Below, piece after piece: positions 15,853-30,862 of a stretch of 35,132 nucleotides of DNA. A model generated the notes under the pieces. The model was not told the origin of the DNA, did no database searches, and saw only the letters and a program-made list of their open reading frames with translations. The DNA is taken from the NCBI GenBank assembly GCA_949289625.1, contig CASEPH010000322.1, positions 1 through 35,132 on the forward strand, written 5' to 3'. A program made the position numbers and the translations under genes. The stretch's first letter is position 1. The number at the start of each line of letters is the position of its first letter. This stretch comes from an uncultured Clostridia bacterium. GTDB lineage: Bacteria > Bacillota_A > Clostridia > Oscillospirales > Oscillospiraceae.

Positions 15853-16695
15853 ATGGGAAGAAAAGCGTTGATTCTCTACGTGTCCGTGACAGGAAACACG
15901 GAAAAAATTGCGAAGTGCTTCCAGGAGGCGCTGGAAGAAATGCAATGGAGCGTGGATCTGATCAAGATCACCAACAAGACGAATTTTGTGGAAGAACCAG
16001 TTTTCTTTGACGCATATGACCTGCTATTTATAGGCAGCCCCATTATGGCCGGGCTGCCCTCTACGCTGGTGGGAAAGAATCTGGGCCTTACGGCGTCTAT
16101 GCCGCCGCGGATGTATTCGGATCGACTGATTATGCCTGGACTCAAGCGGCCAGAGAATCCGGACTATGCACCCTATGCGGTGGAATTCTGTACCTATGGG
16201 GGGACCTCCACCGGTCCCAGTGAATGCCTGGCAACCTTGGCCATCGAAAAGCTGTATCTGGAGAACCTCTACATTCAGACCATTGGACAGTTTGCGTGTT
16301 TGGGAACGGAGCTCCATCATGCATCGGTGGACACCATTGCCGACGATCTGAACATCTCGGTGGATCTGGCGTCAGAGCTTCTGGCACGATTCAAGGCGGA
16401 TCCCAAGGCAGAGGAGTTTAAAAAGTATCCGCCGCACATTTTGGGAAAGATCCGGCAGGCTGCCAATATGGGCGAGCAGGGGCCCATCCATGAACCGCCG
16501 GAGATGGCGAAAATGAGTCCGGAGGAAAAGGCGCTGGTGAAGCGGGCAGGCGTTATGCCCCATCAGCGGGAACAGCGGCCCAACGGTGATGATAAGGAAG
16601 CTGCCAAAATCTTTGTCCGGAATCTGGTCAAGGGATATTTCCCCGGTACAGAGGGCCGGCGGGAGTATGGCGGAGAATATATCAGTATCAGCTAA
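15853..16695 (+). CDS. Flavodoxin-like protein with long C-terminal extension
   Basis: A 280-residue cytoplasmic protein whose first 150-180 residues are flavodoxin-like. The FMN phosphate loop SVTGNT is at residues 11-16, followed by YDLLFIGSPIMAG (the 50s/60s loop region) and a VEFCTYGGTSTG segment where the second FMN loop falls. The remaining 100 residues are helical and charged and are not part of a normal flavodoxin. Flavodoxins carry electrons to partner enzymes. The ATG at 15853 has GAAAGGA 9 bases upstream; an ATG at 15844 is possible. The solute-binding protein gene follows 11 bases later, so the two are an operon. A close relative lies at 19670. Confidence 0.85.
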   Translation: MGRKALILYVSVTGNTEKIAKCFQEALEEMQWSVDLIKITNKTNFVEEPVFFDAYDLLFIGSPIMAGLPSTLVGKNLGLTASMPPRMYSDRLIMPGLKRPENPDYAPYAVEFCTYGGTSTGPSECLATLAIEKLYLENLYIQTIGQFACLGTELHHASVDTIADDLNISVDLASELLARFKADPKAEEFKKYPPHILGKIRQAANMGEQGPIHEPPEMAKMSPEEKALVKRAGVMPHQREQRPNGDDKEAAKIFVRNLVKGYFPGTEGRREYGGEYISIS

Positions 16696-16706
16696 AGGAG
16701 GAAGCA

Positions 16707-18434
16707 ATGAAAAAGAAAGTACTTGCAATACTGTTGACGCTGGCTATGGTGCTTGCGCTGCTGGCAGGTTGTGGGACGGAAACTGGCATGGAAACAGGGA
16801 CGGAACCCTCCGAAACGGAGCAGGCTGCTGTGTCCCAAGAGGCTGAGACGTCCATACAGACACAGCCGGAAATGGAACAGGAAGCTTCGGCTCCAGAAGA
16901 GAGCGTTTCTATGACGGAACCGGAAATTCCTCAGGTGGAATATCCCTTGTCCGAGGAACCCGTAACGCTGACTATGTGGTATTCCTTCCCTGGGGATCTG
17001 GCGGACATTATGCAGGAGTATCTGGGAAACGGCAAGAGCAGTGTTCTGCAGGCCGTAGCGGAGAAGACCGGCGTAAATTTGAGCTTTATGCTCCAGTCCG
17101 TTACAACGGCCAACGACAGCTTTAATCTGCTGGTAGCCTCCGGTGACTATCCGGATCTGTTCCAGAATGCCGGCAGCTACTACACCGGCGGCATGGATAA
17201 GGCCGTGGACGACGAAGTGCTGGTGGACCTGACGGGACTGCTGGAGGAGAACGCGCCCAACTACAACGCCTTGATCCATCAGGATGAGACCACTCTGGCG
17301 GACGCTTCCACCAGCAGTGGCCGGATTGTGGAGATCAACCGGATCATGGCCGATTACACCCGGCCCAGCACCGGATTGGTGATCCGCCAGGACTGGCTGG
17401 ACGATCTGGGCATGGAACAGCCCACCACTTTGGATGACCTCCACGATGTGCTGGTGGCCTTCAAAAATGAGAAGGGGGCCGTGGAACCCCTGGGCCTGGG
17501 CTATACCGGTGTATTGGACGAAAATGAGATCTGTTCCGCCTTCGACGTATATGGGGTCTACGCGGCATTTATGGGTACCTATCCCTTCTATGTGGTGGAC
17601 GGCCAGGTGAAATTTGGATGGGTGGAGGACAATTTCAAGGAGTACCTGTCCTTAATGAGCCAGTGGTATGCAGAGGGCCTAATCGGTTCGGACTACTACA
17701 TCGAGAACACCGGTCACGGCATCGATTCCAGCAAGACCACCACGGGGCAATGCGGTGTTTGGCTGCACGATTATTTCCAGATCGAGCTGATCCAGACCCA
17801 GATGAACGATGAAAACGCCGATGTTCAGGCCATTGCCGCCCCGGTCAAAGAGAAGGGCCAAACCCTGCATTTTGGTAGCAGAAAGACCCTGATTGGAGGC
17901 CAGACGCTGGCCATCACCACCGGCTGCGGGGATCCTGAGCTGGCCCTGAAGTATATTGACTTCTTCTTCACCGACGAGGGAAGCATCCTCTGTAACTACG
18001 GCGTGGAAGGAGAAGGCATGGAGTACAACGAGGACGGGGAACCGGAATACACGGAGTTGATCTACGCCAACCCCGACCACAGTATGCGGGAAACACAGGT
18101 CATGTACACGTTGACCATCGGTCCCTTTGTGGAGGATGAGAGCCGCAACGACATTGCCTACTCCGAGAAGGAAAACGCAGCCCGGGGTGTCTGGGCATCC
18201 AATGTGGACGATGCCTACATCATGCCCACTACAGACCTCAGTGCTGACCAAGCTTCTGAGGTGTCCGGGATCATGGGCGACCTGATGACCTATGCCACCG
18301 GCAAGATCACCGAGTTCATCATTGGTTCTGATTCCCTGGACAACTGGGACGCCTATGTGACAGAGATGGAATCCTTCAACGTGAGCCGTGCCATCGAGAT
18401 CTACCAGGAGGTATACGACGCCTATATGGCATAA
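16707..18434 (+). CDS. Lipoprotein solute-binding protein 1 (no cognate permease)
   Basis: A 575-residue extracellular lipoprotein of the family 1 / LplA-like ABC solute-binding group. The signal peptide ends in the lipobox LAGC with the lipidated C22, then a Glu/Thr-rich linker to about residue 75. The binding domain has SFNLLVASGDYPDLF, TGLVIRQDWLDDLGM, a VDGQVKFGWVEDNFKEYLSLMSQWY segment and a C-terminal DFFFTDEGSILCNYGVEGEG, all usual in this group. Such proteins normally deliver a ligand to an ABC importer, but no permease or ATPase gene is in the window. It is cotranscribed with a flavodoxin-like gene upstream and an AraC regulator follows. Related proteins are at 24458 and 29102. Confidence 0.92.
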   Translation: MKKKVLAILLTLAMVLALLAGCGTETGMETGTEPSETEQAAVSQEAETSIQTQPEMEQEASAPEESVSMTEPEIPQVEYPLSEEPVTLTMWYSFPGDLADIMQEYLGNGKSSVLQAVAEKTGVNLSFMLQSVTTANDSFNLLVASGDYPDLFQNAGSYYTGGMDKAVDDEVLVDLTGLLEENAPNYNALIHQDETTLADASTSSGRIVEINRIMADYTRPSTGLVIRQDWLDDLGMEQPTTLDDLHDVLVAFKNEKGAVEPLGLGYTGVLDENEICSAFDVYGVYAAFMGTYPFYVVDGQVKFGWVEDNFKEYLSLMSQWYAEGLIGSDYYIENTGHGIDSSKTTTGQCGVWLHDYFQIELIQTQMNDENADVQAIAAPVKEKGQTLHFGSRKTLIGGQTLAITTGCGDPELALKYIDFFFTDEGSILCNYGVEGEGMEYNEDGEPEYTELIYANPDHSMRETQVMYTLTIGPFVEDESRNDIAYSEKENAARGVWASNVDDAYIMPTTDLSADQASEVSGIMGDLMTYATGKITEFIIGSDSLDNWDAYVTEMESFNVSRAIEIYQEVYDAYMA

Positions 18435-18450
18435 AGATGGTTTTCCCATA

Positions 18451-18482
18451 GGAGCACCGCGGAAACCATTCCGCGGTGCTCC
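18451..18482. terminator. Hairpin after solute-binding protein 1
   Basis: A perfect 14-bp GC-rich stem (18451-18464 with 18469-18482) with a 4-base loop, just after the gene's stop. There is no T-run, so it may stabilise the mRNA end or act as a weak or Rho-type terminator. The next promoter starts 3 bases later. Confidence 0.5.
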
Positions 18483-18484
18483 GC

Positions 18485-18513
18485 TTGCGCCGGAAGAAAC
18501 AATTGCGTATAAT
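18485..18513 (+). promoter_or_regulatory. Promoter of AraC regulator 1
   Basis: -35 TTGCGC (18485-18490) and a perfect -10 TATAAT (18508-18513) with 17 bases between, 30 bases before the ATG at 18544. Confidence 0.7.
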
Positions 18514-18543
18514 AGAACCATTGCGGCAGGGGGAGGTGCGTTT

Positions 18544-19677
18544 ATGAGTCCGGGACAGGAAGAACGGGAAAGACAATGGGAAAGCCTCCTGCTCAACGGA
18601 ACGACACAGGACCTGCCGGAAGGGCTTGTGCTGCCGGTCATGGTAAATATCCGGCAATGGAATGGCAGTACAGGCTGGCGGGAAAAACGGGCAGTCATTC
18701 GGACCGTGGAAGGTCATGTCAGGAAGTGTCTGCTGCAAGCAGACCAGGAAGGCGCTTGCCTGCAGCTGGATGAAACGCATTTACTGGCAATTCTGACTAT
18801 GCCACTGGGACAAGGAGAAGTATGGGCACGATGTCAAGACGTGCTGGGGGCCTGCGGAGAAGCCCTGATGTGCGAGGTGTCCTGTTGCATTGGAGAGCAG
18901 ATATCTGGGGACGAATTGGGGAAACAGGTAGACCGAATCTATGCGTTGGAGGAAGCTACCGTATCCAACTGCCCGATCCTTCAGCTGGAGCAAACGGAAC
19001 AAGGGGAAAGCGTTCCGCCGGAACTGCTGGAACAGTGGCGGTATTTGCTCCAGGACGGAAACTTTGATCCGCTGCTGATGAAAGTGGAGCGCTATTTTCA
19101 GGAGATGGAAAAACGATTGGACGCCGCTTCGCTCCACCGATTTAACCAGGACTTCCTTCAAATGCTCTATGGGTTTATGGCCGAAAAACAGGTGCCGGCC
19201 CATGTGCTCTTTGACCGGCGGGAAAATGCGACTGTATTTCGGGATGCCACAGTATCGATTGGCAATACTGTGACCTGGATTTTTGCGGCAATCACCGCGC
19301 TGTCTGTCCATCTGGAGCGGCGACGCAGCAGCCAGAACTATACCCAGCAGGCAAAGAATTACATTCTGGAACACCTGGGTGACAGCTTTACCCGGCAGGA
19401 TATTGCCGAGGATGTACATTTGAGCCAGAATCACTTGGCCAGACTGTTTCGTCAGGAGACGGGAATGAGCATCTCGGAGTATATTTTGCAGGAACGAATG
19501 AAACTGGCCTTTAATCTGCTAAAGAACACGGGGCTGTCGGTGGGCGAAGTGGCGCTGCGGGCCGGTTATGAAAACTACAGCTATTTCTTGACGCTGTTCC
19601 GACGGGTGGCGGGTATGACGCCCAGCCAGTATCGGGAGAAATACAACGTGTCCCTGGGAGGAGATCGACATGAATAA
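18544..19677 (+). CDS. AraC-family transcriptional regulator 1
   Basis: A 377-residue DNA-binding regulator. The C-terminal 100 residues carry the two helix-turn-helix units of AraC: FTRQDIAEDVHLSQNHLARLFRQETGMSISEYIL and LSVGEVALRAGYENYSYFLTLFRRVAGMTPSQYREKY. The N-terminal 275 residues have no recognised sensor; the middle region (about 175-255) is helical, like the segment between receiver and HTH in YesN-type regulators, but no receiver domain is present. The ATG at 18544 follows a GGGGGAGG site; upstream in-frame codons back to 18388 cross a hairpin and promoter and are unlikely. The gene end overlaps the flavodoxin-like gene by 8 bases, so they are co-expressed. Confidence 0.92.
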   Translation: MSPGQEERERQWESLLLNGTTQDLPEGLVLPVMVNIRQWNGSTGWREKRAVIRTVEGHVRKCLLQADQEGACLQLDETHLLAILTMPLGQGEVWARCQDVLGACGEALMCEVSCCIGEQISGDELGKQVDRIYALEEATVSNCPILQLEQTEQGESVPPELLEQWRYLLQDGNFDPLLMKVERYFQEMEKRLDAASLHRFNQDFLQMLYGFMAEKQVPAHVLFDRRENATVFRDATVSIGNTVTWIFAAITALSVHLERRRSSQNYTQQAKNYILEHLGDSFTRQDIAEDVHLSQNHLARLFRQETGMSISEYILQERMKLAFNLLKNTGLSVGEVALRAGYENYSYFLTLFRRVAGMTPSQYREKYNVSLGGDRHE

Positions 19678-20470
19678 CGCATTGATTCTCTATGCTTCCA
19701 GCACAGGAAATACAGAAAAGGTGGCAAAAAGGTTCTTTTCTGTGCTAAAAAAACAGAACTGGGATTGTAGAATGCTTCGGCTGGAAGACACAACGAATTT
19801 GCAACGAGAAAAGATATTCCTGGACGACTACGACCTGGTGTTGTTGGGTTCTCCGGTGATTTCGGGAAGTCCCTCGCCGCAGGTTTCAAAGCATCTAGCC
19901 CTGGTAGGGGCGGAGCCACCCCGGCTGTACAGCAACCAGATGATTTTCCCTGGATCCTTCTTCCGGCCGGAACGTGCTCCGCTGGGAATTGTGTTCGCGA
20001 CATATTCCGGCGAGACCTTTGGACCGGTGGAGGTATTGCCCACGTTGGAATTGGAGCGTATGTATCTTCAGTATCTGTTCCTTGATGTGATTGGCAAGTT
20101 TGCCTGCCCTGGCAGAAAAGAGCCCAAAAGCACTATTGAGTGGCTGGCCTCGGACTTGCATCTGGAGCTGAGCCAGGTGGCACCCCTGATTGGACGCTAT
20201 GAGCGAAATCCCCAAGACCCGTCGCTGAAAGCAATGGGGGAAGATGCGCTGGCCATGCTGCAGCAGGCTGTTACGGACAAGCAACAAGGTGGACCTCAGG
20301 TGCTGCCGCCGGAGTTTTCCGATGCGGTTTGGCATCGGGATCTGGAGCAGCGTCCCCATGCGCGGGATCTGCGCAAAGCGGAGATTTTTCTGGAGGAGAT
20401 TCTGGAGGATTATTTTACAGAGGAGGGGCTGCCAAAAGCTCCGGGTTCGGTATATACCTGTATCGGGTAA
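19670..20470 (+). CDS. Flavodoxin-like protein 2 with C-terminal extension
   Basis: A 266-residue paralogue of the protein at 15853. The FMN loop SSTGNT is at residues 10-15, followed by YDLVLLGSPVISGSPSPQVSKHL, which lines up with the same region of the first protein, then PPRLYSNQMIFPG, which matches PPRMYSDRLIMPG. The C-terminal 90 residues are again an extra helical region; both proteins end in a related Glu-rich helix and DYF or GYF followed by a short tail. It probably binds FMN and serves as an electron carrier or reductase subunit. The start overlaps the AraC gene by 8 bases with GGGAGGAG upstream. No terminator is evident before the next promoter. Confidence 0.85.
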   Translation: MNNALILYASSTGNTEKVAKRFFSVLKKQNWDCRMLRLEDTTNLQREKIFLDDYDLVLLGSPVISGSPSPQVSKHLALVGAEPPRLYSNQMIFPGSFFRPERAPLGIVFATYSGETFGPVEVLPTLELERMYLQYLFLDVIGKFACPGRKEPKSTIEWLASDLHLELSQVAPLIGRYERNPQDPSLKAMGEDALAMLQQAVTDKQQGGPQVLPPEFSDAVWHRDLEQRPHARDLRKAEIFLEEILEDYFTEEGLPKAPGSVYTCIG

Positions 20471-20503
20471 AGACGGTGGATGGTCCACATAAAAAATGTA
20501 TAC

Positions 20504-20532
20504 TTGATTGCACAGAAAGAATCTGGTAAAAT
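20504..20532 (+). promoter_or_regulatory. Candidate promoter of the kinase-like gene
   Basis: -35 TTGATT (20504-20509) and -10 TAAAAT (20527-20532), spacing 17. A second reading, TTGCAC (20508-20513) with TTATAG (20532-20537), overlaps it. It is about 40 bases before the ATG at 20571. Confidence 0.5.
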
Positions 20533-20570
20533 TATAGTGAAAAGAATTGCAATACGGGATAGGAGGGCCT

Positions 20571-21176
20571 ATGGGATATCAGATCATTACCATTAACCGG
20601 GAGTTTGAATCACGGGGCAGTGAAATTGCGCAGGAGGTGGCCAAACGGCTGCAGATCCCCTATGTGGATAAATTTTTGATTACGGAATCCGCTATCAAGA
20701 GTGGGATGAGCGTGGAAGCCATTCGAGCCACTGATGAGATGCTGGCCTCCCGGTTTGAATATTCGCAGGCGGAGGCGGCCCACTATTATACCTCTGCGGA
20801 ATCGCCTTTGCCCACCAGTGAGAAGGTGGCAGAGGTGCAGTTCCAATTGATTCGGGAGGTTGCGGAAAAAGGTCCCTGTGTGATTGTGGGACGCTGTGCC
20901 AATCACCTGCTACGGGAGCGGGAGGATGTGCTGGATATATTTATCCATGCGGGACGGGACTACCGGGTTAAACGCACCATGGATGTATTCCAGCTTTCCG
21001 AGCGCAGCGCAGTGCGACTCCTGAAACGGACAGACAAGGCCCGGAAAGCCTACTATAAAAACTACACGGGGATGGATTGGAACGATCCCAATTCCTATCA
21101 TCTGGTGCTCAACAGCGACAGACTGAAATTTGAGACCTGTGTTTCGCTGATTTGCAGCGTATATCAGGGGATCTAA
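20571..21176 (+). CDS. Cytidylate kinase-like family protein
   Basis: A 201-residue cytoplasmic protein of the cytidylate kinase-like (Cytidylate_kin2) family. The N-terminus IITINREFESRGSEIAQEVAKRLQIPYVDKFLI has the family pattern I-x-REF-x-S-x-G, in which the nucleotide-binding loop is modified. A central CVIVGRCANHLL and the Arg-rich lid region RVKRTMDVFQLSERSAVRLLKRTDKARKAYYKNYTG follow. Most members have no proven substrate. Note TINREFESRG where ISREFGSGG is typical, so the glycine-rich loop is degraded. The start follows AGGAGGG; 100 bases separate it from the flavodoxin-like gene. Its role next to electron carriers is unknown. Confidence 0.85.
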   Translation: MGYQIITINREFESRGSEIAQEVAKRLQIPYVDKFLITESAIKSGMSVEAIRATDEMLASRFEYSQAEAAHYYTSAESPLPTSEKVAEVQFQLIREVAEKGPCVIVGRCANHLLREREDVLDIFIHAGRDYRVKRTMDVFQLSERSAVRLLKRTDKARKAYYKNYTGMDWNDPNSYHLVLNSDRLKFETCVSLICSVYQGI

Positions 21177-21453
21177 GCTCTTCCATAAAAAACAAAGGTT
21201 TGGACGATGGATTTGTTTTTCCTGGGAGCATAGAAAGCCACACAAGGGTCTGAATGTTACATTCAAGAAGACCCGGGTGGTGATTGAATTGCAGGAGTTG
21301 ATCTACTGCGAGTGGTCGGGCCTGCTATGACGCATTTCGGACGGCGTTTGTCGCCTATTTGGCGGAATAGGCATGCTAGGGCCATTGTACCATAGCATAT
21401 ATGGCAGGGGCCTTAATTTGCAAAAATAGAGTGTTTTTACGCAGAAATAGCAT
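21177..21453. other. Structured gene-free stretch
   Basis: No supported gene lies here. A short + frame encodes VTFKKTRVVIELQELIYCEW and then stops near 21330; it has no start or ribosome site and may be a gene remnant. From about 21320 several inverted segments occur: a 7-bp stem at 21353-21359 with 21366-21372, and CCTGCTATG near 21321 facing CATAGC and GCAGG near 21391-21410. This could be a structured RNA or simply debris. Confidence 0.3.
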
Positions 21454-21497
21454 AGAGAACGACGCGGACAGAAACAGTACTGTCCGCGTCGTTCTCT
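21454..21497. terminator. Long hairpin between convergent genes
   Basis: A perfect 18-bp stem (21454-21471 with 21480-21497) and 8-base loop between the kinase-like gene (+) and AraC regulator 2 (-). It is probably bidirectional; it is followed by GTTTAAG on + and by an A/T-mixed stretch on -. Confidence 0.7.
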
Positions 21498-21544
21498 GTT
21501 TAAGCAGCTGCTAAAAAGCTAAAAATGTGCCATGGAAATATAGA

Positions 21545-22834
21545 CTATCTGCGCTCCCGGAGAAATTCACTGGGCGTCTTTCCCTCCAATCGCTTAAATG
21601 CCCGAATCATATTGATCTGAGCACCATACCCCACCTGTTCTGCAATTTCTCGAATGGTGAGATTACCGCCAAGGAGGGCCTTTGCAGCTCGAATACGCAC
21701 CTGCTGGATATAGTCCAGCATCCGCGTTTGATAGCAGCTGTGAAATACCCGGGTCAGATGGGAAGGGGATACGCCCAGATGAAGGGCCACCTGATTGACA
21801 TTGAGGTTTTGATCCCCGTAATTCTCATCCACATAAGCCCGGGCCTGCCGGGCAAGTTGCTGATTTGGCGTGCCGTCACCGGCCCACTGCGCGGCTAGGG
21901 CGTCGAGAATGACGTCCATTTGCGCTGAGATCTCATCCAGTGTCTGGGCAGAAAGCAGAAGTGTTTCGGCGTGAAGCTGCTCCAGCACCTGCCCAATCCC
22001 CAGCTCACGGCTGGCCCGGGCCAGGGTCTGGGTTGTATAGTCGATCAGGGCGGCCACACGGAATCGGAGCATGGTGGCAGAGGGCAGCGTATGGAGAAGA
22101 TCAGCCATAATCTGTTCCCGGAAATAGTGCTTGGCCTGATCAAAATCTCCCCGATTGATATAATCGCTGAACTGCTCGTTGGCCTCCCGGGAGGCCACGA
22201 TCCGCTGCTCCGCTTCGCTGATGTGGGCTACATCATGATAAAACAGAATTTCCGGTAGGGAGGCACCCACAATACTCCAGTAATCCCGGAGCATTTCGAT
22301 GTTTTTTCGTAGCTGGGGAAGCTGGCTGAGCCCGTAACCAATGGGGCTGACGAATATTTGAAAACGAAAGCCCTCGGCCTGCTCCAGGACTTTGTTGACA
22401 TTGCTGCACATGTCGGTAAACGCTTTACGGTAGTCTGTGGAAGGGAGCTGGTCCGACAAATTTACCAGACAGTAGATGCAACCGTTGAAGTTGGCTGTGA
22501 CGCAGGCGTGCTGACGCTTGAACTGAGGACGGATCAAGTCCGCCAGCCGGCAATAAAAGGTGCTGTTGAGGGACTCCCAAACAGGCAGGGCATCCATAGT
22601 TCCCGGTTCGGAGAAGGTGTCGGTAAAGCCGCAGAGAACGAATCGGTTCCCATGAAAGTCTACGCCGGTAATACTGGCGAAGCGTTCACGAGTAAATTTT
22701 TTGTTGTCTCCATCTGACAAGATGGCTACCACAGCCCGGTCTGCCAGATAGCGCCGGCGTTCCTGCTGCAGCTCCGACAATTGGCCCTCCAACGCCTGGA
22801 TACGGGTTTTCAATTCTTCTATGGTTTCGGGCAT
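21545..22834 (-). CDS. AraC-family transcriptional regulator 2
   Basis: A regulator of 429 residues from ATG 22834, or 444 from ATG 22879. I prefer 22834 because GGAGG lies 13 bases upstream, while the other start has no ribosome site. The protein begins with a coiled coil (IEELKTRIQALEGQLSELQQERRRYLADRA), has a 200-residue unrecognised sensor, a helical middle (EANEQFSDYINRGDFDQAKHYFREQI) like YesN-type proteins, and a C-terminal AraC domain: LNVNQVALHLGVSPSHLTRVFHSCYQTRMLDYI and LTIREIAEQVGYGAQINMIRAFKRLEGKTPSEFL. It is divergent from the FAD reductase and binding-protein genes, with promoters that interleave, so it is the likely regulator of that operon. Confidence 0.9.
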   Translation of the reverse strand: MPETIEELKTRIQALEGQLSELQQERRRYLADRAVVAILSDGDNKKFTRERFASITGVDFHGNRFVLCGFTDTFSEPGTMDALPVWESLNSTFYCRLADLIRPQFKRQHACVTANFNGCIYCLVNLSDQLPSTDYRKAFTDMCSNVNKVLEQAEGFRFQIFVSPIGYGLSQLPQLRKNIEMLRDYWSIVGASLPEILFYHDVAHISEAEQRIVASREANEQFSDYINRGDFDQAKHYFREQIMADLLHTLPSATMLRFRVAALIDYTTQTLARASRELGIGQVLEQLHAETLLLSAQTLDEISAQMDVILDALAAQWAGDGTPNQQLARQARAYVDENYGDQNLNVNQVALHLGVSPSHLTRVFHSCYQTRMLDYIQQVRIRAAKALLGGNLTIREIAEQVGYGAQINMIRAFKRLEGKTPSEFLRERR

Positions 22835-22893
22835 CTGGGCTGCACTTCCTCCATGAAATCGGAATTTGTCATCCTGCAATCAAAATTAGTTCA

Positions 22894-22988: not shown

Positions 22989-24446
22989 ATGTCAAATTGG
23001 GATTTGATTGTTGTTGGCAGCGGCGTTGCCGGAATGACTGCCGCACTCCGTGCCGGCGAGCAGGGTGTGGAAAAGATTTTAATTCTGGAAAAAGCACCCT
23101 ATGTAGGTGGCAACTCCCGGGCGGCAGGAGGTGTGTTTGCCACCGGTGGAGAGACGCTGGCCAAGGCTGGGTATTCCATGGACCCCCAGAGCTACTATGA
23201 ACAGGCCATGGAGCAGCTGCAGTTTTCAGTGAATCCAGAGCTGGTGCGAAAGTATATTTTCAACAGCGGTGCGGCACTGGATTGGCTCAGCGGAACGGGC
23301 CTGCAGTTTGAGATCAAGCAGATGCCCTTCGGCTGTTTCATGGCAACCATCGAAAGTGATGAATTGGCGGAGCCATACCGAAAAGCGGCGCCCACCAGCC
23401 ATTCCTATATGGGAACAGCCATGGTTATGAAGCTGAAAGACATGTGCCAGAAACGGGGCATCGAGATCCTGACGGAGACCAGAGCCATGGAACTGTGTAC
23501 CGATGAAAGGGGCAGGGTCTGCGGTGTTGTGGCGTTACAACAGGGGCAGGAGACGAGCTTCCAGGCAAAGACGGTAATTTTGGCCACAGGCGGTGTGGCC
23601 GGTACTGTGGCCTCTCTTCATGAGTTTTTCCCGCAGCTGTTTGACGCGGAGGATACCAACTTTACCTTTGGCAGCGCCCACTGCGTTGGGGATGGCATTC
23701 ATATGGCGGAAAAGCTTGGTGCAGACTGCCGGAAAGCCATGGGGATCCTGCTCAAAGGGCCCAGCCATCTGGGGCCAGGCGGGACCCAGGCGCTGACCTA
23801 CAGCGCCGATTCCATGATCGTGACCCAGCATGGCGCACGGTTTATCGACGAGGCCAAAATCTGGAGCTTTCACGCCGCCCTGAACAACATACCCAAAAAG
23901 ACCACCTATACCATTGTGGATGATAAGATTGTTCAGGAGCTGAACGCCAAATTGCCGCCCCAGGCCCAACCAGGAACCAGCAAAGCGCCGGTTACCCTGC
24001 TGGAAGGATTGCGGCAGGAGGCAGAGGCCGGGAAAAACACCTTCATTGGAGATGATCTCCGAGAAGCGGCAAAATACTTTGATATTCCGGAGGCAGCGCT
24101 GCTGCAAAGTGTCAGCCAATACAACGCAATGTGTCGGGCCGGGAAGGATACGGATCTGGGCAAAGATCCCAGGCACCTCAAGCCCATCGACACACCGCCC
24201 TACTATGTGCTCAAGGGTGGACGCTCCACTGACAGTACCTATGGCGGCGTGCGGATCAACGGAGATTTTCAAGCCTTGAAGCCTGACGGATCTGTGATTC
24301 CCGGACTGTACGCCATTGGCGATGTGGCCACCGGATTTGTGGCCGAAATCTACGCGCCTCCTGGCGCAGGGTTCACCTGGAGCTTGGGGTCCGGACATAT
24401 GTGCGGCAAAGTTGTGGCGGATGCCATATGTAATACCAAGGAATAG
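22989..24446 (+). CDS. FAD-dependent oxidoreductase 1, fumarate reductase/flavocytochrome c-like
   Basis: A 485-residue flavoprotein of the FAD_binding_2 family, whose members reduce fumarate, urocanate, enoates or 3-ketosteroids. Seen: the FAD dinucleotide fold GSGVAGMTAALRAGEQG near residues 11-27, LEKAPYVGGNSRAAGG, the second FAD region ATGGVAG, and the C-terminal IPGLYAIGDVATGF. There is no Tat or Sec signal, no heme-binding CxxCH domain and no FMN-attachment domain, so it should act in the cytosol with an outside electron donor; flavodoxin-like proteins encoded nearby are candidates. GAAAGGA precedes the ATG. The binding protein gene starts 11 bases after the stop. Substrate unknown. Confidence 0.9.
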   Translation: MSNWDLIVVGSGVAGMTAALRAGEQGVEKILILEKAPYVGGNSRAAGGVFATGGETLAKAGYSMDPQSYYEQAMEQLQFSVNPELVRKYIFNSGAALDWLSGTGLQFEIKQMPFGCFMATIESDELAEPYRKAAPTSHSYMGTAMVMKLKDMCQKRGIEILTETRAMELCTDERGRVCGVVALQQGQETSFQAKTVILATGGVAGTVASLHEFFPQLFDAEDTNFTFGSAHCVGDGIHMAEKLGADCRKAMGILLKGPSHLGPGGTQALTYSADSMIVTQHGARFIDEAKIWSFHAALNNIPKKTTYTIVDDKIVQELNAKLPPQAQPGTSKAPVTLLEGLRQEAEAGKNTFIGDDLREAAKYFDIPEAALLQSVSQYNAMCRAGKDTDLGKDPRHLKPIDTPPYYVLKGGRSTDSTYGGVRINGDFQALKPDGSVIPGLYAIGDVATGFVAEIYAPPGAGFTWSLGSGHMCGKVVADAICNTKE

Positions 24447-24457
24447 GAGGATATGTC

Positions 24458-26182
24458 ATGAAAAATAAATGGAGCATTCTGGTGACGGCATGTCTGCTGC
24501 TGGGATTGTTGGCTGGATGCAGCGATGAGACGGGATCTACAATCCCGGAGGAAGCGTCTTCCGCCACCACGGAAGCTGCGGTTCAGGAGACAGCCCAGCC
24601 GAATCCGGAGCAGGCGGATTCGACCGGAGAGGAAGCCGTCCAGTCGGCTTCTGCCGCAGAGGAGACGGCACAGCCGGATCTGACCATTTCCATGCCCCTG
24701 ACGGAGGACGAAGTCAGCTTCACCCTGTGGCATGATTTTGTGCCGCTGCTGTCGGACTATATGGAAGGCATGCAGGACAATCTGTCCTATGCCACCATGG
24801 AGGAGATTTCCGGCGTCCATATGGAGTTTACCAATGTATCCAAGGATTCCGCCGCCACTGCGGTTTCCCTGCTGGTGGCCTCCGGAGACTATCCGAATAT
24901 TTGGAACGGTTTTGCGGGCTACTACGGCCAAGGCATCGACACCGCCATCGACGCCGAGATCATCTATGATCTGGCCCAGTATAAGGACCTGATGCCCAAC
25001 TATTTCAGCATTGTGGACGGAAATGAGCAATACGCCAAGGAAACCTACACCGACGATGGCGCGATGGGACTTGCCTACTGCCTCAACAGTAAGCAGGTCA
25101 TTGAATCCGGACTGGTCATGCGGCAGGACTGGCTGGAGGAGCTGGGCATGGAGGCTCCGGTGACCTATGAGGATTTTGAGGAAGTGCTCAAGGCTATGTA
25201 TGATGCCTATGGCGGTACCTTGTGGCTGTCCTATCTGGGGGATGACATCACCAAGTCCTTTTCCGCCGGCTTTGGCATCACCGCCTTTAATCTGGGCAGT
25301 GAGACCTATTTCCAGCAGGTGGACGGGCAGGTGCAGTTCTGCCCGCTGGAAGAGGGGTATCTGGAATATGTGACGCTGATGAATCAGTGGTATCAGGATG
25401 GGCTGCTGTATCCCGACTTTGTATCTGGCACCAGCACCACCACCTGCGACCCCAGCCTCATGGCCAACGGGACCATCTCCATGGTGTCCTGTCCTGCCGG
25501 GTTTATCGAGCAGTTCTACGCAGTGGCCGGGGATGAAAACTTTGAACTGGTGGCCTCTGCCCGGCCGGTGAAGCAGGAGGGTGACGTGATCCATCAGGGC
25601 TCTACTGTAGCTATGACCTCCACCAACGGATTCTCCATTGCCACCTCCATTTCCGATGACGATCCCAATTTTGAGATTCTGCTGAAGTGGCTGGACTACT
25701 GGTATACTCAGGAGGGCTCCGATCTGGCCAACTACGGTGTGGAAGGAGTCAGCTACAATCGAAACGAGGATGGGACCGTGGAGTTCACCGAACTCATGAC
25801 CAACAATCCCGATGGACTGGCGTTTAACCTCTGCATGAACCGATATGTACTGTTTGTGGGCTCTTTTGTCAACGACAATACCAGAACAGCCGTCAACTAC
25901 AACGATAAGCAGGCGGAAAGCGTGGAGATCTGGACCGAGAGCGCGGGAGATGGAGCCTATGTCTACCCCATGGCCATCTCCATGACCGCAGAGGAATCCG
26001 AGGAATTCTCCTCCGCCTATAGTGATATTGCCACCTATGTGGAGTCCCAGACTCTGGGCTTTATCACCGGCAGCGTGCCGCTGAGCGAATATGACAGCTT
26101 CTGCGACACCATTGAATCCATGGGTATCGACGACCTTACGGAGATCTATCAGAACTGCCTGGACCGCTATAACGCAAGGTAA
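24458..26182 (+). CDS. Lipoprotein solute-binding protein 2 (no cognate permease)
   Basis: A 574-residue lipoprotein paralogous to the one at 16707. The signal peptide ends LAGC with C21; an Ala/Glu/Thr-rich linker runs to about residue 80. Shared landmarks are VSLLVASGDYPNIWNGFAGYYG, SGLVMRQDWLEELGM, YLEYVTLMNQWYQDGLLYPDF, WYTQEGSDLANYGVEGVSY and the helical C-terminus. It probably binds a small organic ligand outside the membrane; no permease genes are present. It is cotranscribed with FAD reductase 1 (11-base gap, AGGAGG site). That suggests the ligand, or a product of it, is the substrate of the enzyme; this is inference. A strong hairpin ends the operon. Confidence 0.92.
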   Translation: MKNKWSILVTACLLLGLLAGCSDETGSTIPEEASSATTEAAVQETAQPNPEQADSTGEEAVQSASAAEETAQPDLTISMPLTEDEVSFTLWHDFVPLLSDYMEGMQDNLSYATMEEISGVHMEFTNVSKDSAATAVSLLVASGDYPNIWNGFAGYYGQGIDTAIDAEIIYDLAQYKDLMPNYFSIVDGNEQYAKETYTDDGAMGLAYCLNSKQVIESGLVMRQDWLEELGMEAPVTYEDFEEVLKAMYDAYGGTLWLSYLGDDITKSFSAGFGITAFNLGSETYFQQVDGQVQFCPLEEGYLEYVTLMNQWYQDGLLYPDFVSGTSTTTCDPSLMANGTISMVSCPAGFIEQFYAVAGDENFELVASARPVKQEGDVIHQGSTVAMTSTNGFSIATSISDDDPNFEILLKWLDYWYTQEGSDLANYGVEGVSYNRNEDGTVEFTELMTNNPDGLAFNLCMNRYVLFVGSFVNDNTRTAVNYNDKQAESVEIWTESAGDGAYVYPMAISMTAEESEEFSSAYSDIATYVESQTLGFITGSVPLSEYDSFCDTIESMGIDDLTEIYQNCLDRYNAR

Positions 26183-26198
26183 CAATTAGATAACACAC

Positions 26199-26230
26199 AA
26201 ATGGCCTGGTCCCGGGGGACCAGGCCATTT
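26199..26230. terminator. Bidirectional hairpin terminator
   Basis: A stem of 13-15 bp (26199-26213 with 26216-26230) between the convergent binding-protein gene (+) and FAD reductase 2 (-). It begins with AAA and ends with TTT, so both strands give a T-tail. Confidence 0.8.
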
Positions 26231-26285
26231 GCTATGGAAAAGGGGAGTGTTGTTTGACGACGTCGGGCTTTACTGGTATAATATG

Positions 26286-27773
26286 CTACAATAACTCCTT
26301 GCAGATGGCCTTCCCGGCCAATCTGCCGGTATTGAGTGCAAAGGAGGATGTGTTGCCGCAAAGATAGAAGGGATAGCTGTTGCCGTATATGGTGTTGGCG
26401 TCGTTGCCCGCACAATAAAGTCCTGGGATCGGGTCCTCCTGGGCGTTCAGCACCTGGGCCTTGTGGTTGATTTTTACGCCGCCTAAGCCGCCATAAGTGT
26501 CACAGAAGAATCTGGCACCGTAGTATTTGGGACCCTGGATCGGCTTAAGGTACTTTGGCGCCTTATGGAAGATGGGATCCTCACGATTTTCACACATCGC
26601 GTTGTATTCTTCCAGCGTTTCCTTGAGTGCCTCCAGGGGAACATTGGCTTGTGCGGCGAATTCCTCCAGGCTGTCTGCCAGAAAGAAATCTACACAGCCT
26701 TCCGCTCTGGCTTGTGTGATGATGGTATCCATGGGAATGCCATTGAACCGTTCGAATGGCTCTGGTGCTCGAGGTGGTTGATTAGGATCGGCCTCTTCCA
26801 TGGGAGGCCCTGACGGGTGGAGACGCTGTTCCTCCAGATAATCCTGGTACATCTTCTCGTCCAATAGGGAAATCGCACAGCCCTGATACTGGGCATGGAC
26901 GGCGTTGCCAGTATAGCCGGGATTGGAGCAAAGATCCTCCCGCATAAAGCGCTGACCCTTTTGATTGATCATCAGGTTGACGGGCTGCCGCAGGCAGGCC
27001 AGTGCCGGTGCGGTGCCCAGTGGGCCGCCGTAACCCTTGGTAAGGCCCACATAGGTGTCCATCATCATGGGAGCCTTTTTTCCGCCCACAGCCCAGATCA
27101 TGTTTAGCCCATCACCGCAGGTTTCGGACATATCAAAGGTATACATGATGTCCTTGTCAATGGTATAACCCACGTCGTGGACCATTTCCGGATTTCCGGA
27201 GAATCCGCCTGTGGCAACCACCACGGCCCGGGCCTCTACGGCAAATGCGTTGCCGCTTTGGTCTATGCCTTGTAGGCCTACCACAGCACCGTTCTGAACT
27301 GTAAGGGCCTGAACGGTGGTGGCCAGATGGAACACAGTGCCACAGGCTGTGGCGTGTGCAGTCAGCACTTCCGCGATGTTTTTTCCTCGGTGATTGAAGT
27401 TGTGCTGGGTCTGCTTCCCGCCCTTATAATAGGCGCTGACGGATTCAAATCGGATCCCCATATGCTCCAGCCAATCAATGGTATCGGCGGAAAGGTTAAT
27501 ATATTCCGAAACCAATCTGGCGTTGGTGGTCCAGTGGGTAAATTCCATCATATAGTTGAAGGCCTGCTCCTTGGTGAGATCCACAAAGGAGCGCTCCTGG
27601 AGACTACTTTCTACAGCGAAGGGACCGATGCCGCCGTTGCGGAGACCGCCGGTCTTGTTTCGCTTGTCAAAGACAGCCACAGACAGCCCCTGTTCTGAGG
27701 CTTCCACTGCGGCGGCTAAGCCAGCGGGACCCGCACCGATGATGGCAACGTCATATTTCATCTTGTTCATCAT
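26286..27773 (-). CDS. FAD-dependent oxidoreductase 2, fumarate reductase-like
   Basis: A 495-residue member of the same FAD_binding_2 family as the protein at 22989 but clearly diverged. Seen: GAGPAGLAAAVEASEQG near residues 13-29, VFDKRNKTGGLRNGG, ATGGFSGNPEM, CGDGLNMIWAVGG and the C-terminal IPGLYCAGNDANTIYGNSYP followed by NTGRLAGKAI. No signal peptide and no heme domain. The start at ATG 27773 has AGGAG 6 bases upstream on the minus strand; a TTG two codons earlier is less likely. It is divergent from AraC regulator 3 with only 41 bases between them. The electron donor and substrate are unknown; steroid, enoate or aromatic acrylate reduction are family possibilities. Confidence 0.9.
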   Translation of the reverse strand: MMNKMKYDVAIIGAGPAGLAAAVEASEQGLSVAVFDKRNKTGGLRNGGIGPFAVESSLQERSFVDLTKEQAFNYMMEFTHWTTNARLVSEYINLSADTIDWLEHMGIRFESVSAYYKGGKQTQHNFNHRGKNIAEVLTAHATACGTVFHLATTVQALTVQNGAVVGLQGIDQSGNAFAVEARAVVVATGGFSGNPEMVHDVGYTIDKDIMYTFDMSETCGDGLNMIWAVGGKKAPMMMDTYVGLTKGYGGPLGTAPALACLRQPVNLMINQKGQRFMREDLCSNPGYTGNAVHAQYQGCAISLLDEKMYQDYLEEQRLHPSGPPMEEADPNQPPRAPEPFERFNGIPMDTIITQARAEGCVDFFLADSLEEFAAQANVPLEALKETLEEYNAMCENREDPIFHKAPKYLKPIQGPKYYGARFFCDTYGGLGGVKINHKAQVLNAQEDPIPGLYCAGNDANTIYGNSYPFYLCGNTSSFALNTGRLAGKAICKELL

Positions 27774-27814
27774 AATCAACTCCTAACGATATACGAGAAT
27801 GGAGGGAGACGCCA

Positions 27815-29068
27815 ATGCGTATGCAAGAGCATCCGGCAGGTCGAAAGGCTCACGACCTGTTTATGGCAGAGCAGCTATTTGGCAGCTGTATGTCCAGAGA
27901 GGAGGTCTGGGCCGCGTTCCAACAGATGAATATCCCGGCGGAGGATCGCTGCTTCTATGTGTCGATCCTGACGCCTGAAAATCTGGCGGATTGTGCCAGA
28001 AGGGCAAATAGCAGCCGGTACGAGTTGATGCATCTGGCGGCATCCGAGATTGGGCGCTGCTGCGGAATCCTGTCCTCCGAGGATCTTTGGATGCTCAGCG
28101 GTATGCTGCCGTCGGAAATTGCCGTACTGTTTTCCATTCGCGGAGAGTTCTATCGGCGGGACCGACAGGCCCTGGAACAAAAGGTATCCGGGGTGCTACA
28201 GGAAATTATGGATACCTGCGGTACTTCCGGGATTACCTGGCGAGCGTATACCAGCCACCCTACCCTGGAGGCCGAACTGATTTCCCAGATCTTTGACCAA
28301 GCCAGAGAACTTATGGCAGCGGCGGTGATGCTGGGGCTGACGGCACAAAATATTCGCTATGAGGATCTGTGTGTTGCCGGGGCAGAACTCTATACCCCGG
28401 ACTATATGCGGACCGTACAGCAGCAGGAGGGGCGGTTTTGGACGGCGCTGTCCAGAAACGATTTTCAAAAAGTGCAGGCTGTGCTCCATGAGATGATTGC
28501 GGTCCAGTTCCGACTGGAACATTTGAATGTACAATGCGCCACGGCCGTATTCTATGCGCTCCTGAACAAGGTCCGGTGCGCTATCGACTGCATGCGGCTG
28601 GTGGCTGGACCGGAGGCCTTTGTGGCGTTTGAAACTGCCCCTCGGATCCTGTACCGAAAATCCATTCGGGAAGTGGAGGAACAGATCGATGTGATCTTCG
28701 ATACCTTCTACCATGACAAAAGCAATTCGGCATCACCGCCCCCGTGGCTATCCAGGTTGCAGGAATACATCCAGGGGCATTACTGCGATCCCAATCTAAA
28801 TATTGCCACGGCGGCGGATCGATTTGGCTTAAACCCTGCCTATGCCTCCCGGCTTTACAAACGATACTTTGGTCATGGTATACTGGAACGAATCAATCTT
28901 TTGCGGATTGAAGAGGCAAAAAAGCAAATGCAGGACAACCGGCGGCTGAAAGATATTGCTGCGGCGGTGGGCTATGACAACCCACAGCGCATGAACCGAG
29001 CGTTTCAGAAGTATATCGGCGTTACGCCCAGAGAGTTTATGGAACAGCATCAGACATTGGATTTCTGA
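27815..29068 (+). CDS. AraC-family transcriptional regulator 3
   Basis: A 417-residue regulator. The C-terminal AraC domain has LNIATAADRFGLNPAYASRLYKRYFGHGILERIN and LKDIAAAVGYDNPQRMNRAFQKYIGVTPREFMEQH. The N-terminal 300 residues show a helical middle around NDFQKVQAVLHEMIAVQF that matches YesN-type proteins, but no receiver domain. There is no membrane segment, so a cytosolic signal is likely. A GGAGGG site precedes the ATG. The 41-base gap to FAD reductase 2 means the divergent promoters must extend into coding sequence; I could not find convincing hexamers. It converges with binding protein 3 over a 33-base gap holding a hairpin. Confidence 0.9.
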   Translation: MRMQEHPAGRKAHDLFMAEQLFGSCMSREEVWAAFQQMNIPAEDRCFYVSILTPENLADCARRANSSRYELMHLAASEIGRCCGILSSEDLWMLSGMLPSEIAVLFSIRGEFYRRDRQALEQKVSGVLQEIMDTCGTSGITWRAYTSHPTLEAELISQIFDQARELMAAAVMLGLTAQNIRYEDLCVAGAELYTPDYMRTVQQQEGRFWTALSRNDFQKVQAVLHEMIAVQFRLEHLNVQCATAVFYALLNKVRCAIDCMRLVAGPEAFVAFETAPRILYRKSIREVEEQIDVIFDTFYHDKSNSASPPPWLSRLQEYIQGHYCDPNLNIATAADRFGLNPAYASRLYKRYFGHGILERINLLRIEEAKKQMQDNRRLKDIAAAVGYDNPQRMNRAFQKYIGVTPREFMEQHQTLDF

Positions 29069-29094
29069 GGGCTCCCGGAATACCGGGGGCCCTC
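29067..29094. terminator. GC-rich hairpin between convergent genes
   Basis: A 12-bp stem with one T-G pair (29067-29078 with 29083-29094) that begins inside the AraC 3 stop codon and ends 7 bases before the last codon of the minus-strand binding-protein gene. There is no T-run. Confidence 0.45.
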
Positions 29095-29101
29095 CGGCCT
29101 G

Positions 29102-30862
29102 TTATCGAGCTTCCAGATAGGTGTCCACGGCGTTTTGCCAGCAGGATACACAGGTGTCGATGCCCATGGCCTCGATATCGGCAACATAGTCGTCAAATTC
29201 GTCCAGAGAACGGGCTCCGGTGATAAATTTGGCGATATTTTCGCCCACATAGGTGAGGATATTGGAATACTGCTGGGCATAAATCTCCGCATCCTCGGCG
29301 GTGAGTTGAGCTGCTGCGGGGATGGACATGAGATTGTCTGTATCAATGGTGGACAGCCAGATATCCCCGGCCTCCAGGGCCTCGACGGGATAGGTGGAGT
29401 TAAATCTGTCCTCATAGAGATATCCTACGCCGGTCTGAATGGCATACAGGTTGCAGGCTACAATGGCGCCGAGTCCGTCGGGGTTGTTGCTGATGAGGTC
29501 AGTAAATTCAGGCTGGCCGTCCTCGTTGTAAGTAAAGGTCTCGCCCTCGACGCCGTAGCTGTAGATCAGGGAGCCCTCCTCGCTGAAGGCAAAGTCCACC
29601 CATTTTGCAACGACCTCAATGTTTTCACAGGTAGCGGATATGGAGAGAGAATTGGCTTCCACCGTGCTGCCGGTGTAATTTCCAAGCCGATTCAGCTGGC
29701 CTTCTTCCATAACGGCGTCCTGGATGGCGACGCTTTCAAAGCCTTCGTCAATTGCAGAAGCGGTGTGTTCGCTCATGATCTGACTCATGTGATACCAGAG
29801 GCCTGTGCTGCCGTCGGTGACGTCGCCGGCAGAAACCTGAACATCACTGTTGCTGAGATAGTCAGGGGAAATCAGCCCTTCGTCGTACCAGGTGTGGATC
29901 ATGGTCAAATAATCCTTAAAAGCAGGCTGAATAGGGCCATAGGACACAACACCATTGTCCTGGTAGTAGGCACCGGTTGCACTGGTTACATCGGTATAGG
30001 CTGCAATCCCGTAGCCAGCGGTGAGATAGTTGCCGCTGGGAACGCCATTAGGCCCCAGATACAGAGCACTGGTGGCACCCTTCTCGTTTTTAAACAGGGT
30101 CAGCATTTCGTGATAGTCGTCGTAGGTGACAATGCTGGTGGGATCGATGCCCAAATCATCCAGCCAGTCCTTCCGAGCGATGGGTCCCAGGCCGGGTTTC
30201 ACAGGATTACGATTTAGGGTAAAGATTTCCCCGATGTTGCCATCGCTCATGACGATTTGACCATAGACGTCCGGGTCGGAAATCCGATAGGCGTAATTGG
30301 GCATATATTCGTCAATGACATCCGTAAGCTCCATGAAGACGCCGTCTTCCACTGCCTTAATGGCCCCGCCAGCGTAGTAGCGGCTGCCCCAGACCATGAT
30401 GTCGGCATAATCGCCAGAGGCTACCATCAAATTAAATTTCTGATCTGTTTCGTCAGTCACTGCCCAGAAATCCAGATGGACGTTTGTCAGTTCTTCTAAA
30501 AGCTGGTAGGTAATATTATCGTTCATGGTGTTGAGATAACTGGCCACCATGGGGCTCATCTCAAACCAGTAGCTGATGGTCTCCGTTTCCTCGCAGATGG
30601 GAAGGGAGAATGCGCCTGGGGCAGTCGCGGTCTCGGTAGCAGAGTCTGCCTCTACTGCTGAGACTGCTGTGCTTTCCTGGGGAGTATCAGAAACCACGGG
30701 GGGTTCTTCGGAGACGCTGCTTTCCACGTCGATGGTGGTTGCTTCTGCGGGTGCCTCAGAAGAGGATTCCGCTGTTGGAGTTCCGCAGGCGGAGAGCGTG
30801 GAAAGAAGCAGCATCAGACAAAGCACCAAGGCAAGAGGACGAAAAAATGGGTTTGCACGCAT
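29102..30862 (-). CDS. Lipoprotein solute-binding protein 3 (no cognate permease)
   Basis: A 586-residue lipoprotein, third member of the set. The signal peptide ends LSAC with C26; a Ser/Glu/Val-rich linker runs to about residue 85. Shared landmarks are KFNLMVASGDYADIMVWGSRYYAGG, PIARKDWLDDLGI, TMIHTWYDEGLISPDY, FSEEGSLIYSYGVEGETFTYNEDGQPEF and a helical C-terminus. It differs most in its ligand region. It stands alone on its strand with its own promoter and a large palindrome at the start of transcription, which implies tight repression. The neighbours AraC 3 and FAD reductase 2 are the likely functional partners. An AAAGGAG site precedes the ATG. No permease is nearby. Confidence 0.92.
   Translation of the reverse strand: MRANPFFRPLALVLCLMLLLSTLSACGTPTAESSSEAPAEATTIDVESSVSEEPPVVSDTPQESTAVSAVEADSATETATAPGAFSLPICEETETISYWFEMSPMVASYLNTMNDNITYQLLEELTNVHLDFWAVTDETDQKFNLMVASGDYADIMVWGSRYYAGGAIKAVEDGVFMELTDVIDEYMPNYAYRISDPDVYGQIVMSDGNIGEIFTLNRNPVKPGLGPIARKDWLDDLGIDPTSIVTYDDYHEMLTLFKNEKGATSALYLGPNGVPSGNYLTAGYGIAAYTDVTSATGAYYQDNGVVSYGPIQPAFKDYLTMIHTWYDEGLISPDYLSNSDVQVSAGDVTDGSTGLWYHMSQIMSEHTASAIDEGFESVAIQDAVMEEGQLNRLGNYTGSTVEANSLSISATCENIEVVAKWVDFAFSEEGSLIYSYGVEGETFTYNEDGQPEFTDLISNNPDGLGAIVACNLYAIQTGVGYLYEDRFNSTYPVEALEAGDIWLSTIDTDNLMSIPAAAQLTAEDAEIYAQQYSNILTYVGENIAKFITGARSLDEFDDYVADIEAMGIDTCVSCWQNAVDTYLEAR

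Follow-up and report, generated by a model that had tools for sequence, protein, structure and literature searches.

Here we describe three gene clusters in a 35,132-nucleotide stretch of DNA from an uncultured Clostridia bacterium of the Oscillospiraceae (contig CASEPH010000322.1; hereafter, the window), each combining a solute-binding protein (SBP), an AraC-type regulator and one or two flavoproteins. We propose that they probably belong to a hub-and-spoke ATP-binding cassette (ABC) importer, in which one permease pair and one ATPase would serve dozens of interchangeable receptors, accompanied by exchangeable enzyme/regulator cassettes. The three clusters would be spokes: each SBP would be a surface lipoprotein that captures a distinct ligand and hands it over to one shared, distant permease pair of the AlgM1/AlgM2 (LplB/LplC) type, powered by one orphan multitask ATPase of MsmX-like type. 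Many receptors are accompanied by a local AraC or LysR regulator and by a few exchangeable cytosolic enzymes (FAD_binding_2, old yellow enzyme (OYE)/BaiCD-like, flavodoxin-like, SnoaL-like, MaoC-like and CoA-transferase); these would modify the imported compound, most likely by reduction or isomerisation of unsaturated plant or host molecules.

The proposal builds on the parts and their numbers, the near-absence of linked permeases in two genomes, an orphan permease pair, the residue signature of an ATPase and, in one of the two genomes, an enrichment of redox genes. Apart from the parts in the window itself, these come from the genomes of relatives. The RecA encoded in the window is 91% identical to that of G002 (the metagenome-assembled genome (MAG) RGIG4454, from roe deer omasum) and 84% to that of G124, which belongs to the same genus as G002, the next of 150 family genomes being at 77% (78% for a partial match in G089). 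Another relative, G001, is MAG SIG469. We infer that this permease and this ATPase are also encoded in the genome to which the window belongs.

Solute-binding proteins

The three SBPs of the window fall within 14.2 kb. SBP1 (16707–18434, plus strand; 53.1 bits) and SBP3 (29102–30862, minus strand; 38.9 bits) match SBP_bac_1 (PF01547). SBP2 (24458–26182, plus strand), the only one with no Pfam match, was assigned by alignment to the other two and by its AlphaFold model. The proteins are mutually 32–35% identical (SBP2 is 34% identical to SBP1 and 32% to SBP3), and each carries a lipobox as well as a hydrophobic stretch at its N terminus. A profile built from the three sequences matched AlgQ1/AlgQ2 and related structures in the PDB (E values of 6e-39 to 3e-44), with 5gub, 4tqu and 1j1n at 5e-40 to 8e-44; other matches were a glycosaminoglycan-disaccharide binder and FusA-type proteins. 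The top structural match of the SBP2 model (pLDDT 82.5) is AlgQ2 (1kwh; E 2.5e-26), and the nearest solved relatives are titled as sugar binders. By both sequence and fold, the SBPs of the window are AlgQ2/LplA-type lipoproteins; they belong to the SBP_bac_1/AlgQ2 type and not to the TctC family of the tripartite tricarboxylate transporter (TTT/Bug) systems. A simple lipobox pattern is also present in 44 of the 46, 59 of the 63 and 25 of the 27 SBPs of G001, G002 and G124, respectively, that entered our phylogeny (at least 480 residues and more than 200 bits). A further 24 metagenome proteins are 98–100% identical to SBP2, which shows that the organism is common in some sampled environments.

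The relatives contain very many such proteins. G001 (2.4 Mb) has 52 matches to the SBP profile and G002 (3.1 Mb) has 91, 71 of them at E ≤ 1e-50; matches of all kinds to the ABC permease family PF00528 are fewer (22 and 27, respectively). The four genomes of the genus of G002 hold 71, 27, 43 and 26 SBPs. Family-wide, 21 of 150 genomes have an SBP match at E < 1e-30, in a screen that scored at most nine candidates per genome, so that its counts are minima. Full counts were made for G001, G002, the genus of G002 and ten more family genomes, in which the numbers ran from 29 down to 1. The SBPs recur on single contigs, for example at eight places on C12 of G001 and at nine on C60 of G002. Within G001, G002 and G124, paralogs have a median identity of 30%, and the closest paralog a median of 37–41% (single pairs reach up to 85%); most are therefore not recent duplicates.

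Linkage to permease genes

Scans of 34 distinct open reading frames (ORFs) of the window (the full list holds 80, many mutually overlapping) revealed neither an ABC permease (PF00528) nor an importer ATPase. An ABC permease gene lies within 6 kb of 65 of 72 related SBP loci outside G001 and G002, but of none of the eight loci in these two genomes; the survey covered the best 80 of 428 relatives and used permease models of the LplB/LplC, UgpA/UgpE and Pot types. Contig ends are close at two of the seven unlinked outside loci (L020 and L069) and at two of the eight G001/G002 loci (L001 and L058). Measured by coordinates, a PF00528 gene of any kind lies no more than 3 kb from 1 of 50 SBPs in G001 (2.4 expected) and 1 of 71 in G002 (3.4 expected), or 2 of 121 together. 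The expected values rest on the assumption of a uniform genome. The counts exclude 20 weak G002 rows and, of the 52 matches in G001, one fragment of 186 positions and one N-terminal match of 53 residues; two split matches were merged. The linked permease that characterizes LplABC/AlgM1M2-type importers is thus not a feature of the window or of G001 and G002.

The SBPs of these genomes also group together. In an unrooted tree, the branch that best separates the two groups (chosen as such; support 1.0) has 141 SBPs from the window, G001, G002, G124, G022 and G099 on one side and 71 of the 72 outside SBPs on the other. The exception (L027) comes from another Oscillospiraceae genome and is likewise without a nearby permease. 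This separation fits an expansion from one LplA-type ancestor.

An orphan permease pair and an orphan ATPase

G001 contains one AlgM1-type gene at E ≤ 1e-15, adjoining an AlgM2-type gene. The encoded LplB and LplC match AlgM1 and AlgM2 of the alginate importer 4tqu with E values of 4e-75 and 2e-45, respectively. Orthologs of LplB at E < 1e-95 are present in 16 of the 150 family genomes, G001 included, with a partial one at a contig end in G099. Counting the latter, and with kinship ignored, an LplB ortholog occurs in 16 of the 18 SBP-positive genomes (E < 1e-50) versus 1 of the 132 others. In 15 of the 17 genomes with LplB, the SBPs seen are either on other contigs or separated from it by 29.9 kb or more; in G022 and G099, an SBP of the expanded clade directly follows the permease pair. 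The four genomes of the genus of G002 each have one full-length LplB ortholog, at 71–72% identity.

Where its surroundings were scanned, the permease gene adjoins ClpC-type and guanido-phosphotransferase genes in G001; in G124 and G002 it lies by mraZ and/or the gene of the MraW methylase, and in G072, G009, G108, G013 and G113 by that of DNA polymerase I. The flanks visible vary (0.6 kb on one side in G124, a 6.7-kb contig in G139). Genes of relatives were called by codon usage, with no start-site model; this caller missed LplB in G113 and G139, for which positions were taken from the ortholog search.

A conserved ATPase of 372–389 residues (414 in G001, through an N-terminal ORF extension) has no labelled permease or SBP gene near it in the regions fetched from G001, G002, G124, G072, G009 and G065. 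The G124 protein matches 7x0q first and MsmX second (6yir; E 1.4e-134), and also AlgS. Four residues reported for multitask ATPases (D77, R104, E110 and K154; PMC7658222, excerpt) are complete in all six orphan ATPases of the relatives, at positions counted from the Walker lysine without gaps. None of eight other ABC ATPases from these genomes and G148 has all four; two have one or two. SBP, both permease subunits and ATPase all match one solved importer type, which we count in favour of a shared importer.

These results bear out the observations of the first-pass annotation, a reading of the DNA alone, and part of its interpretation. It had listed three paralogous SBPs, three AraC regulators, two FAD_binding_2 proteins and two flavodoxin-like proteins, and family scans and alignments recover every one of them in its place. 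No permease was found in the window, as the annotation had said, and SBPs without a permease recur in the lineage. A shared permease encoded elsewhere, which it had suggested, emerges as the best explanation.

Enzyme and regulator neighbours

The families adjoining SBPs in G001, G002 and G124 include OYE/BaiCD-like (median 683 residues), FAD_binding_2, flavodoxin-like, SnoaL-like, MaoC/FAS1_DH-like, CoA-transferase, MATE, AraC and LysR, labels without a family scan having been assigned by eye; esterases also occur among the non-reductase neighbours. An OYE, FAD or flavodoxin-like gene lies within three genes of 22 of 50 SBPs in G001, 30 of 69 in G002 and 12 of 31 in G124; these counts take in a few weakly labelled SBPs, which are binding proteins of other kinds with about 300 residues, and use selected regions as control. 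Among the matches listed, a FAD_binding_2 or Oxidored_FMN gene lies no more than 3 kb from 28 of the 71 G002 SBPs, where 10.6 would be expected (p 5e-7), and from 16 of the 50 G001 SBPs, where 9.3 would be expected (p 0.017). Oxidored_FMN alone gives 7 of 50 in G001 (5.9 expected; p 0.38). The FAD list omits Rossmann-only and other short matches, which are mostly inside OYE-like frames.

Some groupings are conserved. Cluster 3 is found whole and in the same order at one locus of G124 (L157), with 81% identity for the SBP, 75% for the AraC protein and 88% for the FAD protein. At another (L164), a 66% ortholog of AraC2 stands in a row with SnoaL-like, SBP and FAD genes; the SBP and FAD proteins there are not the closest to those of the window. 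Relatives of flavodoxin-like protein 1 adjoin SBPs in G001, G002 and G124. The nearest SBPs to SBP1 in the tree (G002 L239 and G001 L119) both adjoin flavodoxin-like genes, and homologues of AraC1 (33% identical in G001 L147; 30% in G002 L239) adjoin flavodoxin-like and SBP genes.

On a tree of 139 SBPs, the neighbour families were compared with 500 shuffles. Clustering is weak for flavodoxin-like (19 shuffles as low), MaoC-like (8), AraC (44) and LysR (35) neighbours, little for MATE (89), and none for SnoaL-like (295), CoA-transferase (500) and C8 (500) neighbours. The idea that each SBP clade has its own FAD or OYE enzyme gained no support, since 230 and 362 of the 500 shuffles, respectively, were as low. 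The SBP–reductase clustering noted in the first pass stands for G002 and for the third module, kept in G124, and is less secure in G001, where it depends on one contig; a 'steady' pairing, as had been claimed, is not supported, FAD and OYE neighbours being placed on the tree as in shuffles.

Glycoside hydrolases could have connected sugar-type SBPs with aglycone reductases. Among 99 unlabelled immediate neighbours with 150–900 residues, however, none of the 25 commonest families is of this kind (126 rarer families fall outside this view), and this link was set aside.

OYE-type reductases are strikingly numerous in these genomes: Oxidored_FMN matches at E ≤ 1e-15 number 37 in G001, 45 in G002 and 19 in G124, most in frames of 640–760 residues, and the one frame scanned fits BaiCD-type models. 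The family that we term C8 (L135, 420–2366, and relatives) recurs in the same three genomes, often near SBPs; the member scanned (648 residues) has no Pfam match.

Flavoproteins of the window

FAD1 (22989–24446, plus strand; PF00890, 174.3 bits) and FAD2 (26286–27779, minus strand; 166.6 bits) are FAD_binding_2 flavoproteins with 26% mutual identity. Their nearest relatives are vinyl phenol reductase, urocanate reductase and flavocytochrome c (FAD1 matches urocanate reductase 6t85 at E 1.2e-39). With the VprA model they score 200.8 and 277.5 bits, respectively, both below the NCBIfam cut-off of 600. In alignments, both have other residues at the columns where urocanate and fumarate reductases have their carboxylate-binding His and Arg, which we take to be the active-site residues that hold the substrate carboxylate. 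Fumarate-, urocanate- and itaconate-like acids are therefore less likely substrates, and this disfavours urocanate and itaconate, two of the acceptors that had been suggested for these modules.

Neither protein has an export signal, an FMN_bind match or a strongly hydrophobic window, and the N terminus is a Rossmann motif (from about residue 5 in FAD1). Extracellular flavinylated respiratory reductases are defined by an export signal and an FMN_bind domain together with FAD_binding_2; FAD1 and FAD2 do not belong to this class.

Flavodoxin-like protein 1 (15853–16695, plus strand), which has a long C-terminal extension, shows weak Flavodoxin matches below cut-offs, and flavodoxin-like protein 2 (19670–20470, plus strand) matches Flavodoxin_3 and Flavodoxin_5 barely above cut-off. 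They are 36% identical and consist of a flavodoxin core with a long extra part. The AlphaFold model of flavodoxin-like protein 2 (pLDDT 84) has weak fold matches to flavodoxin, WrbA and FprA (E 5e-7; TM about 0.4); the sequence and fold search, made with this protein only, returned no close PDB relative. It scores 20.2 bits with the BilS model (NCBIfam cut-off 155), and flavodoxin-like protein 1 is not among the matches listed. Two relatives (L147, 6626–7930, 434 residues; L176, 2006–3232, 408 residues) carry additional sequence at the N terminus and an insert rich in Gly and Pro.

Alternative explanations

The strongest alternative is that the clusters are repeated respiratory modules, each importing its own organic electron acceptor, which would be reduced by a cytosolic reductase to yield energy or keep the redox balance. 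We regard this as possible, although somewhat doubtful. The FAD_binding_2 proteins are nearest to the vinyl phenol reductase and urocanate reductase models, the Oxidored_FMN numbers in G001, G002 and G124 are high, reductase genes are enriched near SBPs in G002 and the trio of module 3 is conserved, all of which counts in its favour. However, many neighbours are not reductases (SnoaL-like, MaoC/FAS1_DH-like, CoA-transferase, esterase), the FAD/OYE pairing is not kept along the SBP tree, and the His/Arg columns differ in both FAD proteins.

It is unlikely that the SBPs serve a non-ABC carrier (like TAXI-GltS), or are surface stores or sensors, with the orphan LplB/LplC pair unrelated to them. 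SBP-dependent secondary carriers without their usual partner do exist (PMC12344293, excerpt), but here SBP, permease and ATPase match parts of the same solved importer type, and the LplB ortholog tracks the presence of SBPs. A store or sensor role draws on the three AraC regulators that adjoin SBPs: AraC1 (18544–19677, plus strand; HTH_18, 87.7 bits), AraC2 (21545–22879, minus strand; 72.1 bits) and AraC3 (27815–29068, plus strand; 64.1 bits). In these proteins only helix-turn-helix (HTH) domains exceed the Pfam cut-offs (AraC2 also has a sub-threshold GGDEF_2 match), and no 19-residue window exceeds 1.6 on the Kyte–Doolittle scale (maximum 1.56, in AraC1). Contact with an extracellular SBP is therefore not expected. 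AraC2 and AraC3 align over their C-terminal 135 residues or so, AraC1 only in a multiple alignment.

Ordinary LplABC sugar importers, with permease genes just beyond the window or lost in assembly, would be in keeping with the 65 of 72 linked loci outside G001 and G002 (among the best 80 of 428 relatives), but are very improbable here: none of the three window SBPs is linked despite flanking genes on both sides, the 1 of 50 and 1 of 71 SBPs near PF00528 fall below the 2.4 and 3.4 expected, and the SBPs outnumber the whole set of PF00528 matches. That mixing of metagenome bins has inflated the SBP numbers is just as hard to credit, even though the counts come partly from MAGs without stated completeness or contamination, because one contig here carries three SBPs in 14.2 kb, single contigs of G001 and G002 hold SBPs at several places, and four genomes of one genus have 26–71 SBPs and one full-length permease ortholog each.

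Several observations weigh against the shared importer that we favour. The hub is known from relatives only, and docking of the SBPs on the permease is a prediction from sequence. Two of the 18 SBP-positive genomes (G090 and G144) have no strong LplB ortholog, and the co-occurrence counts are not corrected for relatedness. At E ≤ 1e-15, the LplB-type gene stands alone in 11 of the 17 genomes and no more: an additional fragment occurs in G124, G022 has five genes of this type, and G004, G009, G108 and G110 carry one or two further, more distant ones (23–34%). In the genus of G002, G151 and G152 also have one distant gene each (28 and 25%). 'Single' is thus true of the ortholog, not of every permease of the type. 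The genomes counted include MAGs, the completeness of which is not stated. Redox neighbours occur at about 40% of SBPs, those of the FAD and OYE families show no clustering on the SBP tree, and the enrichment in G001 hangs on one dense contig, without which it falls to 9 of 42 (p 0.27). Even so, we hold the hub-and-spoke importer to be the probable explanation. The SBPs would dock on the shared permease, each would bind a distinct ligand, and the ligands would be reduced in the cytosol.

Other features of the window

Cluster 1 consists of flavodoxin-like protein 1, SBP1, AraC1 and flavodoxin-like protein 2, all on the plus strand, with a gap of 11 bp between the first two genes and an overlap of 8 bp between the last two. 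The ORF of flavodoxin-like protein 1 is open from 15739 and that of AraC1 from 18388, overlapping SBP1. In cluster 2, AraC2 (minus strand) is divergent from FAD1 and SBP2 (plus strand), which are separated by 11 bp. In cluster 3, FAD2 (minus strand) is divergent from AraC3 (plus strand), with which SBP3 (minus strand) is convergent. A cytidylate-kinase-like gene (20547–21176) lies between clusters 1 and 2.

Housekeeping genes upstream include recA, recX and genes for a radical-SAM/TRAM protein, a CDP-alcohol phosphatidyltransferase and cysteinyl-tRNA synthetase. A response regulator, a histidine kinase and a PepSY-domain protein stand in a row upstream of cluster 1 (11612–14886, minus strand). 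At about 32843–33469 (plus strand) there is a remnant of an MFS_2 transporter, with a short start piece followed by only the C-terminal part in another frame, so that a carrier gene seems once to have adjoined the PHZA/PHZB-like gene at 31782–32822. The translation of 31440–31760 (minus strand) resembles, by eye, the C terminus of a LysR-type regulator, again a remnant. The GC content drops from about 0.52–0.54 to 0.44–0.46 at the right end (31001–35132); together with the gene remnants, this suggests that the segment may be recently acquired or decaying. Rfam and tRNA scans of the window gave no matches.

Relation to known systems

Sharing of an importer by a few SBPs, shared ATPases and huge SBP expansions in another transporter class are already known. 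AlgQ2, AlgM1, AlgM2 and AlgS form one dedicated system (4tqu), to which the SBPs, both permease subunits and the ATPase of the relatives match; unlike in that importer, a single permease pair and a single ATPase, both unlinked, seem to serve 26–71 SBPs here. In Bacillus subtilis, the MsmX ATPase is common to several importers (PMC7658222, excerpt). The orphan ATPase carries the same multitask signature residues as these LplABC-type systems with MsmX, but here the permease is seemingly shared too. Five peptide SBPs (DppA1–A5) use one ABC permease, DppBCDF, in Pseudomonas aeruginosa (PMC4206461, excerpt), compared with 26–71 here. The Bug/TctC SBPs of tripartite tricarboxylate transporters have undergone massive lineage-specific expansion, scattered over the genome, in Bordetella and Rhodoplanes (PMC5994714, excerpt). 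They represent a different SBP family and carrier class from the ABC-type, AlgQ2-like proteins of gut and rumen Oscillospiraceae. For tens of SBPs per ABC permease, we found no title or abstract among the matches listed in the open-access literature searched.

The enzymes also differ from their closest models. In VprA and UrdA (FAD_binding_2), FAD1 and FAD2 have their best model and some of their best structural matches, but they fall far under the VprA cut-off and lack the aligned carboxylate-binding His/Arg. BilR and BilS are encoded by a flavin reductase (OYE) gene and a flavodoxin-like gene in one operon (PMC10769871, excerpt). Relatives of our flavodoxin-like proteins likewise lie near OYE or FAD genes in places, but flavodoxin-like protein 2 remains at 20 bits against the BilS cut-off of 155.

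In genomes, SBPs that have no permease gene beside them can easily go unassigned, and tens of SBPs per permease, if true, would change how importer specificity is read from them. Many receptors lie beside candidate enzymes, so ligand screening could reveal the substrates of uncharacterised flavoenzymes, among them compounds from diet, host or drugs. The chances seem evenly balanced for a broader reading, in which the ABC importer is an open socket: one permease pair and ATPase would serve tens of receptors (26–71 in the four genomes of the genus), receptor–enzyme–regulator cassettes would be freely added, lost and recombined, and the gain of a small cassette would bring a new imported and modified compound. 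The SBP cassettes would offer a direct handle on uptake and modification by these gut and rumen bacteria.

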